37,051 bases of DNA from Bacilli bacterium (GTDB taxonomy: Bacteria; Bacillota_I; Bacilli_A; RF39; UBA660): assembly GCA_017406955.1 (NCBI GenBank), contig JAFQXM010000011.1:1-37051 (forward strand). The letters run 5' to 3'. Of this stretch, positions 6,244 to 13,674 are shown one piece after another (the first letter of the stretch is position 1; each line of letters opens with the position of its first letter). The notes beneath the pieces were generated by a model that did no database searches, was not told the DNA's origin, and saw only the letters and a program-made list of their open reading frames with translations. A program made the translations under genes and the position numbers.

Positions 6244-7014
6244 ATGAAAATATATTTAGATTTATTATTAATAATTAATTTCTTTTTTGATTTTATTATT
6301 ATATATGGTACTAAATATATATTAAAAATCACTACTAAATTATATAGAATAATATTAGGTTCTTTATTTGGAAGCTTGACAATTATATTATTATTCTTAC
6401 CACTCAATAGTTTATTATTATTTGTTTATAAAATATTAATTAGTATTTTTATTATCTTAATTAGTTTTGGTAAAAGGAATTTTTTTAAAAACTTATTATA
6501 TTTTTATTTGATTAGTATAATTTTAGGAGGAAGTTTATATTTGTTAGATATTACATATGTATATGATAATACTGGATTAGTTTTCTTTAGTAATGGATTG
6601 TCTATCAATTTTTTATTTATCATTATTGCTTCACCAATTATTATATATTTATATATAAAAGAAAATAAAAGTTATAAAAATATGTATTCTAATATATATA
6701 ATACTAAAATAATAATTAATAATAATACTTATCTATTGAAATCTATTTTAGATACTGCTAATAATTTAAAGGATCCATATAGTAGTAAAAATATTATTTT
6801 AGTAAATAGTAATATTAATATATATAAAGAGAAATTTTTATATGTACCATATAAAGCTTTAAATACTAATGGTATTATAAAATGTTTTAAACCTAATAAA
6901 GTTATTATAAATAATAAAGAGTTTAAAAATTGTTTAATTGGAGTAAGTAAAGATAAATTTTGTTTAGGTGATATTGATTGTATATTACCAAGTTATTTTA
7001 AGGAGGATTTATGA
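6244..7014 (+). CDS. spoIIGA: Sporulation sigma-E factor processing peptidase SpoIIGA
   Basis: The protein has 256 residues from ATG 6244 (GGTGAT five bases upstream). The N-terminal half holds about five transmembrane helices, opening with the typical IYLDLLLIINFFFDF. The C-terminal half is the aspartic-protease domain, with the putative catalytic Asp170 in the motif DTANNLKDPYS, equivalent to the Asp motif of Bacillus SpoIIGA. It sits in the forespore septum on the mother-cell side and cleaves pro-sigma-E after a signal from the forespore protein SpoIIR. The adjacent sigE gene, overlapping by ATGA, fixes the identification. Sequence similarity alone would be moderate because this family diverges fast. 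Confidence 0.88.
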   Translation: MKIYLDLLLIINFFFDFIIIYGTKYILKITTKLYRIILGSLFGSLTIILLFLPLNSLLLFVYKILISIFIILISFGKRNFFKNLLYFYLISIILGGSLYLLDITYVYDNTGLVFFSNGLSINFLFIIIASPIIIYLYIKENKSYKNMYSNIYNTKIIINNNTYLLKSILDTANNLKDPYSSKNIILVNSNINIYKEKFLYVPYKALNTNGIIKCFKPNKVIINNKEFKNCLIGVSKDKFCLGDIDCILPSYFKEDL

Positions 7015-9576: not shown

Positions 9577-9771
9577 TATAAAGCAGAGATTAAAGATTAG
9601 TACTAATTATAATACTATTAGAGAAAATCTGGTTGGTGAAAAGATTTGGTTTTTATATTAGGAAGCTACTTTATGAGCTTTACGGGATACCGTTATAAGA
9701 ATTAAGACCAATGTAGGATGGTACCGGACTTTGTCCTCCTATAATGGTCTTTTATTTGAATAAAAGGAGGA
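9577..9771 (+). promoter_or_regulatory. T-box riboswitch, alanine specifier (GCU), likely translational
   Basis: Stem I closes by TAAAGC (9579-9584) with GCTTTA (9677-9682). The conserved AGAGA (9585-9589) faces ATGA (9673-9676). The distal GGTTGGTGAAAAG is at 9631-9643. The specifier loop reads GAA-GCT-A with GCT at 9665-9667, an Ala codon, which fits alaS in the operon. The T-box bulge TGGTACC (9719-9725) contains TGGT, complementary to the ACCA end of tRNA-Ala. It is flanked by TAGGA/TCCTA (9714-9718, 9737-9741) and GGAC/GTCC (9726-9729, 9733-9736). The 3' arm TCCTCCT (9734-9740) is perfectly complementary to the ribosome site AGGAGGA (9765-9771). This suggests that without uncharged tRNA-Ala the RBS is masked. 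An outer helix AAGACCA/TGGTCTT (9704-9710, 9745-9751) extends the tRNA-stabilised form. Confidence 0.85.
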
Positions 9772-9774
9772 TTT

Positions 9775-10323
9775 ATGAAAATATTTGTATTAGCAGGAAA
9801 AGCTAGTTCTGGTAAAGATCTAGTAGGTAAATATATGAAAGATAGATTTGATAATATGGGAGAAAATACATGTATTTTACATATTACTACTCCTTTATAT
9901 GAGTATGCTAAAAACTATTTTAGTTGGAATGGTGACATGAGAGAAAAACCTAGAGAGTTTTTGCAAGAAATGGGTATTGATATTATTCAGAAAAAACTAG
10001 GTAAAAAGTATTTTTTAGTTAATAGATTGTGTGAAGATATTGATATATTAAAAAACTATTTTGATAATTTTGTTATTACTGATGGAAGACTTGTTAGTGA
10101 ATTTGAAGAACTAAAACGAAGATTTAATGATATTAAAATTGTTCATGTTATTAGAGAAGGTTATGATAATAATTTAACAGAGAAGGAAAAAAATCATATT
10201 ACTGAGTTAGATTTAGAAAATTATAAAGATTATGATTATGTAATTTATAATACATCTAAAGAGAGATTATTAAAACAAGTTGATTTAATAATTAATAATA
10301 TTAAAGAAGGAGAAGTAATATGA
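9775..10323 (+). CDS. P-loop nucleotide kinase-like protein (dNMP kinase-like)
   Basis: The protein has 182 residues with a Walker A variant GKASSGKD at about residues 8-15. The later sequence FVITDGRLVSEFEELKRR resembles the substrate-side DxR/lid segment of phage-type deoxynucleoside monophosphate kinases. KIVHVIREG and YDYVIYN fit the core strands of the fold. I infer a cytosolic (deoxy)nucleotide kinase; the substrate is not determined. It is the first gene after the T-box leader and overlaps cmk by ATGA, which implies translational coupling. An alanine-sensing leader directly before nucleotide kinases is unexpected; alaS two genes on explains it. Confidence 0.6.
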   Translation: MKIFVLAGKASSGKDLVGKYMKDRFDNMGENTCILHITTPLYEYAKNYFSWNGDMREKPREFLQEMGIDIIQKKLGKKYFLVNRLCEDIDILKNYFDNFVITDGRLVSEFEELKRRFNDIKIVHVIREGYDNNLTEKEKNHITELDLENYKDYDYVIYNTSKERLLKQVDLIINNIKEGEVI

Positions 10324-10976
10324 GTTTAGTAATTGCGATAGATGGGCCTGCAGGTAGTGGTAAAGGTACTATTACTAAGCTAGTGGCTAATAAGCTTAAT
10401 TTAATTTATATTGATACAGGGGCAACATATAGAGCGATAACTTATTTAGTATTAAAAAATAATATTGATGTTACTGATAATAAAAAAATAGTACAGTTAG
10501 CAAAAAATAGTAATATTTATTTTAATGAAGATGGTAATATATTTGTTAATGATCTGGATATAACTAATGAGATTAGATCTAAAGAAGTATCTAGTATTGT
10601 ATCTCAAATATCTTCCATTGTTGAGTTAAGAGAAATAATGGTTGATTTACAAAGAAAAATGGCTAAAGATAAAGCTGTAATTATGGAAGGTAGAGATATT
10701 ACTACTGTAGTATTTCCTAATGCTAGTTATAAATTTTATTTAGATGCTAGTGTTGAAGAAAGAGCTAAAAGAAGATATAAACAAAATATAAAACAAGGTA
10801 TAGATATGTCATATGATGATATCTTAGAAAATATAAAAAATAGAGATTATAATGATATGCATAAAGAAGTTGGAGCTTTAAAAAGATGTGATGATCAAAT
10901 ATATATTGATACTACTAATTTAAGTATTGATGAAGTAGTAAATACTATTATTGGATATATAGAAGGAGTTGATTAA
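10320..10976 (+). CDS. cmk: Cytidylate kinase (CMP/dCMP kinase)
   Basis: The protein has 218 residues, normal for Cmk. The Walker A GPAGSGKGT is at residues 9-17 and is followed by the nucleotide-binding YIDTGATYRA. MEGRDITTVVFPNA is the conserved EGRDIGT block, with Thr for Gly. RAKRRYKQ is in the lid and NIKNRDYNDMHKEVGALKRCDD is the family's RDxxDxxR-type block. It phosphorylates CMP and dCMP with ATP in pyrimidine salvage and mRNA turnover. It overlaps the upstream kinase by four bases and is followed by alaS two bases after its stop, so all three share one transcript. Confidence 0.93.
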   Translation: MSLVIAIDGPAGSGKGTITKLVANKLNLIYIDTGATYRAITYLVLKNNIDVTDNKKIVQLAKNSNIYFNEDGNIFVNDLDITNEIRSKEVSSIVSQISSIVELREIMVDLQRKMAKDKAVIMEGRDITTVVFPNASYKFYLDASVEERAKRRYKQNIKQGIDMSYDDILENIKNRDYNDMHKEVGALKRCDDQIYIDTTNLSIDEVVNTIIGYIEGVD

Positions 10977-10977
10977 T

Positions 10978-13674
10978 ATGAAGTATATGAGTCATGATGA
11001 AATAAGAAAAACTTGGTTTAGTTTTTTTGAAAGTAAAAATCATACTAAAATTGATAGTGCACCTTTAGTACCTATTAATGATGATAGTTTGTTATGGGTA
11101 AATGCTGGTGTCACACCACTAAAAAAATATTTTGATGGAACTGAGGTACCAAATAATAGAAGAATGACTAGTATTCAAAAATGTATTCGAACTAATGATA
11201 TAGATAATGTTGGTATTACAAAAACTCACTTAACTTTCTTTGAAATGATGGGTAACTTTTCAGTAGGAGATTATTTTAGGGATGAGGCTATTAGTTATGC
11301 TTATGAATTATTAACTTCTAAAGACTATTTTAATATTCCTAAGGATTTGTTATATGTAACTATATATCCTAGTGATTTAGAAACTAAGAATAAATGGATA
11401 GAAGTTGGAATGGATACTACTCATATTATTCCTATAGAAGGTAATTTTTGGGAAATAGGTGAGGGTCCTTGTGGACCAGATTCTGAAATTTTCTTTGATA
11501 GAGGAGAAAAGTATGATCCTAATAAAGATGCTTTTGAAAAGTTAAAAAGAGATCAAGATCAAGATAGATATGTAGAAATATGGAATAATGTTTTTAGTCA
11601 ATATAATGCTCAAAAAGGAGTAGAAAGACAAAATTATAAAGAATTACCTAGTAAAAATATTGATACTGGGGCAGGACTTGAAAGGTTTTGTTGTATATTC
11701 CAGAATGTAGATAGTAATTTTGATACTGATTTATTTAAACCTATAATTACTCATTTAGAAGAGTTAACTAAATATCAATATACTGGGCAAAAAGAATTTA
11801 AAATAATTGTAGATCATATTAGAACTATTACATTTGCTTTAGCAGATGGGGCCAGTTTTGAAAATACTGGTAGAGGATATGTTTTAAGAAGACTATTAAG
11901 ACGAGGAGTTAGGTATGGTAAGGTAGTTGGATTTTCTGAACCATTTATGTATAAATTGGTATCAGAAGTTATTGATGTAATGAAAAATGCTTATCCATAT
12001 TTACTTGAGAAAAGACCTTATATTGAATCATTAGTTTTAGAAGAAGAAAAACTTTTCTTTAAGACATTAGAATCTGGAGAAAGAAGACTTAGAGAATTAG
12101 TTAAAGATTCTAATGATGGTATGATTAGTGGAGAAGATGCATTTAAACTATATGATACTTTTGGATTTCCTTTTGAATTAACTGAAGAATATTTAAGTGA
12201 ATTAGGATTTAGAGTATCTAAAGAAGAATTTGACAAATACATGAAAATTCAAAAAGAGCTTGCTAGAAAGAATGTAAAAAATACTACTTCTATGGCTAGT
12301 CAAAAACAGGTTTTATTAGATTTTAAAGAACCTAGTGAATTTGTATATGGAATATATAGATTAAAAAGTAAAGTAACTGCTATTTTTTCTAAAGACAAAA
12401 TTATTGATAGTGTAGATCATGATACTTATATTGCATTGGATAGAACATGTTTTTATGCAGAATCAGGTGGTCAGGTTAGTGATACGGGTATGATTGTTGG
12501 AGATACTTTTAAAGCTCGTGTATTAGATGTTTTTAAAGCTCCTAATGGGCAACATATTCATAAAGTAAAATTACTTACTGGAGTTATTTCTATAGGAGAT
12601 CTATGTGAATTAGTTTTAGATAGGGATGAAAGAAAACATACTGAGTGTAATCATTCAAGTGTTCATATGTTACAGTATGCTCTTCAACAAGTAATATCAC
12701 CTACTATTAAACAATCTGGTAGTTATGTTGATGGTGAAAAATTAAGATTTGATTTCACTTATTCTAATAAAATTTCTGATGATGATTTAATTAATATAGA
12801 AAGATTTATTAATGATATGATAGGAGAAAACTTAATTGTATCTACTGAAGTCATGCCTTTAGAAAAAGCAAAAGAGATGGGTGCTATGGCGTTGTTTAGT
12901 GAGAAATATTCTGATATGGTTAGAGTAGTTAAAATTGGTAAATCAATTGAATTATGTGGAGGAACACACGCTATTAATACTAAGGATATTGAAAAAATTG
13001 CTATATGTTCATTTGAATCTAAAGGAAGTAATATTTATAGAATAGAAGCCACTACTGGTTCTAAGATACCAAATGTTTTATCAAATTATGTTGAGCCTTA
13101 TAAAAATGAAATTCTTAGATTATTAATGAAAGCTAAAAGAATTTTAGATGATGCTAATAAATTAGGAATAAACTTAGATTTTGATGTTGATGTTGAAACT
13201 AAAAAATTAACTTCATATAAAGATATAATTTTCTATAGAAATGAATTACAATATGTTCACCATGAAGTAAAATTATTAGAAAAAAAATATAAAGATATAA
13301 AACAACATAAAGCTTTAGATAATCTAGATAATTATAAAGATAATATTAAAGAGTATGATAATGGATATAGTTCTTTAATTATGAAAGTAGATAATAAAGA
13401 TATTAATAGTCTTAAAACTATAGCTGATAGTTTAATTAATAATATGGATAAAGGTTTTATCTTCTTTGCTAATAGAAAAGATGATGATAGTGTTAATTTT
13501 ATTGCTCGTAGTAATTGTTTTGTAAATGCTGGTTTAATTGTTAAAGATGCTAGTGTATCTTCAGATGGTAATGGAGGAGGTAGTCCTACTTTTGCTCAAG
13601 GTGGAGGTAAGAATACACTTAATTTAGATAAAATTTTCAATCATATTGAGAAAGTATTAAAAAATGGAGAATAA
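10978..13674 (+). CDS. alaS: Alanyl-tRNA synthetase
   Basis: The protein has 898 residues from ATG 10978, with AAGGAG nine bases upstream; an in-frame TTG at 10969 overlaps that site and is less likely. The catalytic class II domain opens with EIRKTWFSFFESKNHTKI and includes FFEMMGNFSVGDYF and GPCGPDSEIFFD. The editing domain has the zinc-binding set HSSVH (H559, H563) and CGGTH (C660 to H664). The C-Ala domain ends with the Gly-rich stretch GGGSPTFAQGGG. It charges tRNA-Ala and clears mischarged Ser and Gly. Expression is likely set by the T-box leader, giving feedback on uncharged tRNA-Ala. The 3' end overlaps holA by 11 bp. Confidence 0.97.
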   Translation: MKYMSHDEIRKTWFSFFESKNHTKIDSAPLVPINDDSLLWVNAGVTPLKKYFDGTEVPNNRRMTSIQKCIRTNDIDNVGITKTHLTFFEMMGNFSVGDYFRDEAISYAYELLTSKDYFNIPKDLLYVTIYPSDLETKNKWIEVGMDTTHIIPIEGNFWEIGEGPCGPDSEIFFDRGEKYDPNKDAFEKLKRDQDQDRYVEIWNNVFSQYNAQKGVERQNYKELPSKNIDTGAGLERFCCIFQNVDSNFDTDLFKPIITHLEELTKYQYTGQKEFKIIVDHIRTITFALADGASFENTGRGYVLRRLLRRGVRYGKVVGFSEPFMYKLVSEVIDVMKNAYPYLLEKRPYIESLVLEEEKLFFKTLESGERRLRELVKDSNDGMISGEDAFKLYDTFGFPFELTEEYLSELGFRVSKEEFDKYMKIQKELARKNVKNTTSMASQKQVLLDFKEPSEFVYGIYRLKSKVTAIFSKDKIIDSVDHDTYIALDRTCFYAESGGQVSDTGMIVGDTFKARVLDVFKAPNGQHIHKVKLLTGVISIGDLCELVLDRDERKHTECNHSSVHMLQYALQQVISPTIKQSGSYVDGEKLRFDFTYSNKISDDDLINIERFINDMIGENLIVSTEVMPLEKAKEMGAMALFSEKYSDMVRVVKIGKSIELCGGTHAINTKDIEKIAICSFESKGSNIYRIEATTGSKIPNVLSNYVEPYKNEILRLLMKAKRILDDANKLGINLDFDVDVETKKLTSYKDIIFYRNELQYVHHEVKLLEKKYKDIKQHKALDNLDNYKDNIKEYDNGYSSLIMKVDNKDINSLKTIADSLINNMDKGFIFFANRKDDDSVNFIARSNCFVNAGLIVKDASVSSDGNGGGSPTFAQGGGKNTLNLDKIFNHIEKVLKNGE

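Follow-up and report, generated by a model that had tools for sequence, protein, structure and literature searches.

An alanine T-box leader of a Bacilli bacterium with a probable terminator that encloses its antiterminator

How does a T-box leader control its operon when the 3' arm of its antiterminator resembles an anti-Shine-Dalgarno sequence and a U-tract stands just downstream? T-boxes are usually described as two mutually exclusive hairpins that compete for one strand. The question arises from a 37,051-nucleotide stretch (hereafter, the window) of a Bacilli bacterium of the RF39 lineage (assembly GCA_017406955.1, contig JAFQXM010000011.1), in which such a leader precedes an operon for a kinase, cytidylate kinase (cmk) and alanyl-tRNA synthetase (alaS). 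An earlier note, made from the sequence alone, had read the leader as an alanine T-box that masks the ribosome-binding site (RBS) of the first gene. Here we report that the leader is a genuine alanine-sensing T-box, and we propose as its probable mode of action that this stem II-less element controls transcription of the kinase-cmk-alaS operon through a terminator that encloses the antiterminator.

Alignment with the Rfam T-box covariance model, which the earlier note had proposed as a check, matched the leader to RF00230 over the full model (1-219) at 9577-9743 (+), with 75 bits and an E-value of 9.4e-17. The match is far above chance level despite scoring under the curated gathering cut-off of RF00230 (93 bits), so a default Rfam scan reports nothing here. 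The core comprises the following elements.

9577-9743, + strand: T-box leader RNA with stem I, stem III and antiterminator, and without stem II or IIA/B (RF00230 match).
9599-9602, + strand: AGTA, 5' side of the specifier loop (sequence and Rfam alignment).
9620-9638, + strand: distal stem I landmarks AGAGA ... GGTTGGTG, the tRNA elbow-binding module of a long stem I (Rfam alignment).
9665-9667, + strand: alanine specifier GCT (sequence and homologous leaders).
9682-9693, + strand: stem III, ACGG-GATA-CCGT (Rfam alignment).
9715-9740, + strand: antiterminator, with helix A1 (9715-9718/9737-9740), the bulge TGGTACC (9719-9725) and helix A2 (9726-9729/9733-9736) (sequence and pairing in homologues).

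The sequence elements named in the earlier note were all found in place when the sequence was read, and the RF00230 match, the GCT specifier, the TGGT bulge and a tRNA-Ala with an ACCA end upheld its identification of an alanine T-box. The leader is specific for alanine. Its GCT specifier agrees with alaS, the third gene downstream, and with the genome's cognate tRNA-Ala, the one such tRNA found (anticodon TGC), whose 3' ACCA is complementary to the TGGT of the bulge. Reading of GCU by tRNA-Ala(UGC) gives a U-U at the third position; the same third-position U-U is present in the alaS T-box of Clostridium acetobutylicum, which is active in vitro (PMC4695836). Nearly all homologous leaders with a readable specifier region carry GCT (or GCA) at this position. 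The strands of A1 (AGGA/TCCT) and A2 (GGAC/GTCC) flank the bulge, and both helices are 99% paired among homologues.

The evidence for transcriptional control lies on either side of this antiterminator, in three further elements.

9704-9710, + strand: AAGACCA, 5' strand of the putative outer (terminator) helix (covariation over 35 leaders; pairing in the minimum free energy (MFE) fold).
9745-9751, + strand: TGGTCTT, 3' strand of the same helix (MFE pairing, homologues, covariation).
9750-9757, + strand: U-tract TTTTATTT, after the outer helix and slightly overlapping it (U-rich in homologues).

AAGACCA belongs to the single-stranded linker of 21 nt (9694-9714) between stem III and A1, which by eye is near in length to the linkers of other leaders. 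The T-rich run at 9750-9757, missed by the earlier note, directly follows TGGTCTT; it is a conserved U-tract in homologues, and its tail resembles the terminator tails of other T-boxes in the same genome. Folding of 9701-9790 gave the outer hairpin as the predicted MFE structure (-22.6 kcal/mol), its outer pairs having probabilities of 0.72-1.0. As in transcriptional T-boxes, then, a hairpin (AAGACCA..TGGTCTT) runs directly into a U-tract, and the arrangement is conserved.

We examined homologous leaders from 18 loci of named records (uncultured Bacilli and Tenericutes metagenome-assembled genomes (MAGs) and Candidatus Onthousia) and from some 90 upstream regions retrieved by a family-wide search for the kinase. 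The T-box motif was present in 59 leaders, the window's included. In 46 of them (outer type) the strand before the U-tract was classed as pairing, as in the window, with one located 5' of the T-box sequence; in the other 13 (inner type) its partners are the bulge and the 5' strand of A2, which gives a mutually exclusive terminator. A GCN specifier is kept in nearly all leaders of both types, where readable. The outer helix has 6-13 pairs and is directly followed by a U-tract in 44 of the 46 outer-type leaders, the window's among them; L084 and L087, the two exceptions, sit at the start of a contig and are either truncated or of poor assignment. Aligned over 35 distinct outer-type leaders, the helix is 92.7% paired, and three of its pairs show double-sided changes (A-U to G-C, C-G to U-A and A-U to U-A). 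When the outer helix, A1 and A2 were taken jointly, sliding the partner strand by 1-3 columns lowered pairing from 96% to 39-54%, and none of 500 shuffles reached the covariation score. Further, U makes up 0.65 of the 9 nt that follow the helix in homologues, versus 0.31 of the stretch from the tract to the start codon. A U-tract preceded by a covarying stem points to transcription termination, as do the 13 orthologues in which a mutually exclusive terminator occupies this position.

The earlier note had assigned AAGACCA/TGGTCTT to the opposite state, as an extension of the tRNA-stabilised ON form. In a full version of that explanation, the outer helix would lengthen the stack of tRNA on A1, and the U-tract would be incidental or termination would proceed via another structure. 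The geometry lends it something, since the tRNA 3' end is coaxial on A1 (PMC7583486), so that a longer A1 may be compatible, and A1 with the outer helix makes one nearly continuous stem. We nonetheless regard it as unlikely: no other candidate for the OFF state emerged, the stem should by prediction be stable without tRNA and hence would not switch, U-richness after the stem is family-wide, and the U-tract holds the same position in orthologues whose terminator is mutually exclusive. Judged by its covariation and the U-tract that follows it, the AAGACCA/TGGTCTT helix is more likely a terminator stem than an ON-form stabiliser.

What, then, of the RBS? The element in question is a single feature upstream of the first gene.

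9765-9771, + strand: Shine-Dalgarno (SD) sequence AGGAGGA (sequence; predicted mostly unpaired).

As the earlier note had pointed out, TCCTCCT (9734-9740) is complementary to AGGAGGA over all 7 bases, and a translational T-box would use this pairing to hide the RBS until uncharged tRNA freed it. We consider this very unlikely. The arm TCCTCCT is itself anti-SD-like, so unrelated SDs in the window match it equally well: among 25 gene starts, it matches at least 7 bases not only at 9775 but also at 7011, 8363 and 35986. The perfect complementarity is thus no more than any strong SD would give. About a quarter of homologous SDs match the arm over 7 or more bases, and homologues often lack the complementarity, an outcome that the earlier note itself had named as refuting its reading. 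Covariation of arm and RBS across homologues, another of its proposed checks, seemed at first to be present, as the longest run between a leader's own arm and SD averaged 5.37 versus 5.06 for mismatched pairs (p 0.007) in 38 homologous leaders, some with misassigned start codons; once the starts had been corrected and each clade reduced to one leader, however, the runs were 5.41 and 5.23 and the signal no longer held (p 0.10). The second helix invoked to support the masked form, CTTTTATT (9749-9756) with AATAAAAG (9759-9766), lies where it was placed, but its 2-nt loop leaves room for no more than 7 of its 8 pairs, and by eye it is present in few leaders only.

Folding of both states gave the same answer. 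The masked fold of the window leader has -14.5 kcal/mol versus -22.6 for the MFE, some 8 kcal/mol above it, with a masking probability of 0.000, and the gap averages 8.1 kcal/mol over 26 representatives. Compared with what is expected of class II (translational) T-boxes, the sequestrator helix is therefore not energetically competitive, arm and SD do not co-vary after clade collapse, and stem I is not shortened: shortening is usual, though not universal, in that class, and here the elbow module (AGAGA/GGTTGGTG) is present. Transcriptional T-boxes typically have a long stem I with this module (PMC7583486). Masking would also leave the conserved U-tract unexplained. A combination of termination with RBS masking of read-through transcripts, at least in some relatives, is quite unlikely as well. 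It would suit three leaders in which masking is near isoenergetic or somewhat probable, L097 (gap of 0.3 kcal/mol, probability 0.57), L102 (0.5 kcal/mol, 0.06) and L050 (0.03), and is opposed by the window's own masking probability and by the absence of arm/SD co-variation after clade correction. The unfavourable fold and the complementarity so often missing in homologues argue against translational control by masking, and the U-tract and the 13 exclusive terminators favour termination.

How could a terminator work around an intact antiterminator? With tRNA-Ala charged or absent, AAGACCA (9704-9710) would pair with TGGTCTT (9745-9751) in a hairpin around A1 and A2 with the U-tract at its end, where RNA polymerase would stop at about 9754-9758. 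With uncharged tRNA-Ala(UGC) bound, its anticodon at GCU and its ACCA at UGGU, the outer helix would fail to close in time and the operon would be transcribed; the SD would be freely accessible in the read-through transcript. Docking of stem III in the tRNA complex may keep the linker (9694-9714) from zipping into the outer helix, a steric or kinetic block that would need to last until the polymerase has passed the U-tract.

This tRNA-dependent block, which we infer, is the weakest step of the proposed explanation, against which several points count. Removing the outer helix costs approximately 11 kcal/mol in folding predictions, so only a kinetic or steric block would do. The tRNA stacks on A1, so base pairing gives no reason why the outer helix should be prevented. 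Published structures, in which tRNA is stacked on A1 and stem III is packed on the complex (PMC7583486), leave an extended A1 possible, and stacking alone could tolerate one. The outer strands flank A1 on either side, so that terminator and antiterminator share no strand in the window leader (among orthologues, only the 13 inner-type leaders have a shared strand), and A1 and the outer helix are compatible on paper, unlike in a textbook switch. The U-tract of the window is also interrupted (TTTTATTTG).

Could the leader instead be a decayed T-box, a constitutive partial terminator that has lost its response to tRNA? The sub-threshold Rfam score would fit, as would the base pair at the foot of A2. 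A G-U pair is described there as the main aminoacyl sensor of T-boxes (PMC7583486), and the window leader and all 35 outer-type leaders (35/35) carry G-C in place of the usual wobble; the G-U is a described sensor feature and no requirement for calling a T-box. Against decay, many genera conserve the specifier, the UGG of the bulge and the stem I landmarks, and we judge decay extremely unlikely. By eye, inner-type alanine leaders mostly have A-U at this pair, and the alaS T-box of one class-level relative (L216) has G-U.

Other structures that might have supplied a conventional switch were tried and set aside. No classical terminator from the 3' half of the antiterminator was seen in the window leader, where a simple terminator scan restricted to loops of 3-8 found none. 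The leader has no downstream complement for a terminator built from the antiterminator 5' half and no small hairpin before the antiterminator that would compete for the outer strand, the linker being too short. A resemblance of GACCA to the tRNA ACCA end is unconserved (AAGATCTAA in L090 and L096), and the one upstream partner for AAGACCA, in stem I of the window leader, is weak and by eye unconserved.

The genome holds 11 T-boxes, most of the others ending in classical hairpin terminators with U-tracts. Seven of the 11, the alaS leader among them, are under the Rfam gathering threshold and are missed by default annotation. In the hisS (L006) and thrS (L007) leaders the terminator is built by re-pairing the antiterminator 5' half, tRNA-binding bulge included. 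The metG leader (L003) of the same genome also has an outer helix; there, as in L059, L062 and L064, the outer strand could by eye fold instead into a small hairpin ahead of the antiterminator, an exclusive alternative that the alaS leader lacks. Enclosing terminators were observed in the family T-boxes L003, L059, L062, L064, L066 and L069, several with the alternative small hairpin. Elsewhere, T-boxes recur ahead of a protein that by eye is HD-domain-like (L002, L015, L024, L025, L032, L037, L063, L068) and, in several genera, ahead of a small membrane-protein-like open reading frame (ORF) (L004, L064, L066, L069).

The operon itself lies in a small Bacilli MAG (1.14 Mb, 15 contigs) and comprises three genes.

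9775-10323, + strand: first gene, deoxynucleotide monophosphate kinase-like (PF21448).
10320-10976, + strand: cmk, cytidylate kinase.
10969-13674, + strand: alaS, alanyl-tRNA synthetase; the listed ORF begins at TTG.

The deoxynucleotide monophosphate kinase-like gene is kept ahead of alaS, often with cmk, across much of the family. A same-genus genome (G001:C1:623547-624704) encodes a short AlaS (~590 aa, 44% identity) and gave no kinase match. The 900-aa form occurs in G000, G002 and G003, and the short form in many family members.

The enclosing terminator seems confined, as a variant, to one family of Bacilli. Two pattern scans, one class-level and one phylum-level, each covered about 400 genomes, with partial overlap between them; AAGACC adjoining AGGATGGTANCG occurred only in the window's own family. 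In several other families of the class, by eye, an alaS T-box with a conventional terminator stands directly ahead of alaS. A broader proposal is tentative, and we hold it as possible rather than probable: the family would have a concentric switch, in which the terminator encloses an intact antiterminator, tRNA docking blocks the outer helix without strand exchange, and orthologues have moved between the two topologies. If true, tRNA binding can act by blocking a helix adjacent to an unbroken antiterminator, and such leaders can escape tools that expect the terminator to follow the antiterminator. An anti-SD-like antiterminator arm alone is, moreover, an insufficient sign of translational control. 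A literature search for riboswitches in RF39 found nothing, and the enclosing terminator may be new relative to the literature compared, which lay outside two main comparative surveys of T-boxes (Vitreschak 2008; Gutierrez-Preciado 2009).

Among the closest known systems, the alaS T-box of C. acetobutylicum is likewise an alanine T-box without stem II and IIA/B, for which antitermination by tRNA-Ala was shown in vitro (PMC4695836); unlike there, the 5' strand of the putative terminator lies here upstream of the T-box sequence, and its stem encloses the antiterminator. With the actinobacterial translational ileS T-boxes (TBDB class II, PMC7778990; PMC7583486), in which stem I is mostly shortened and the SD is sequestered, the leader shares the T-box core and the anti-SD-like 3' antiterminator arm, but it has a long stem I and a conserved U-tract, and masking of its SD is not predicted. 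With canonical transcriptional T-boxes (RF00230; PMC7583486), it shares a stem I with elbow module, the specifier loop, stem III, the A1-bulge-A2 antiterminator and the U-tract, and it departs from them in the topology of its candidate terminator, in the G-C that replaces G-U in A2 and in an operon led by a kinase gene.
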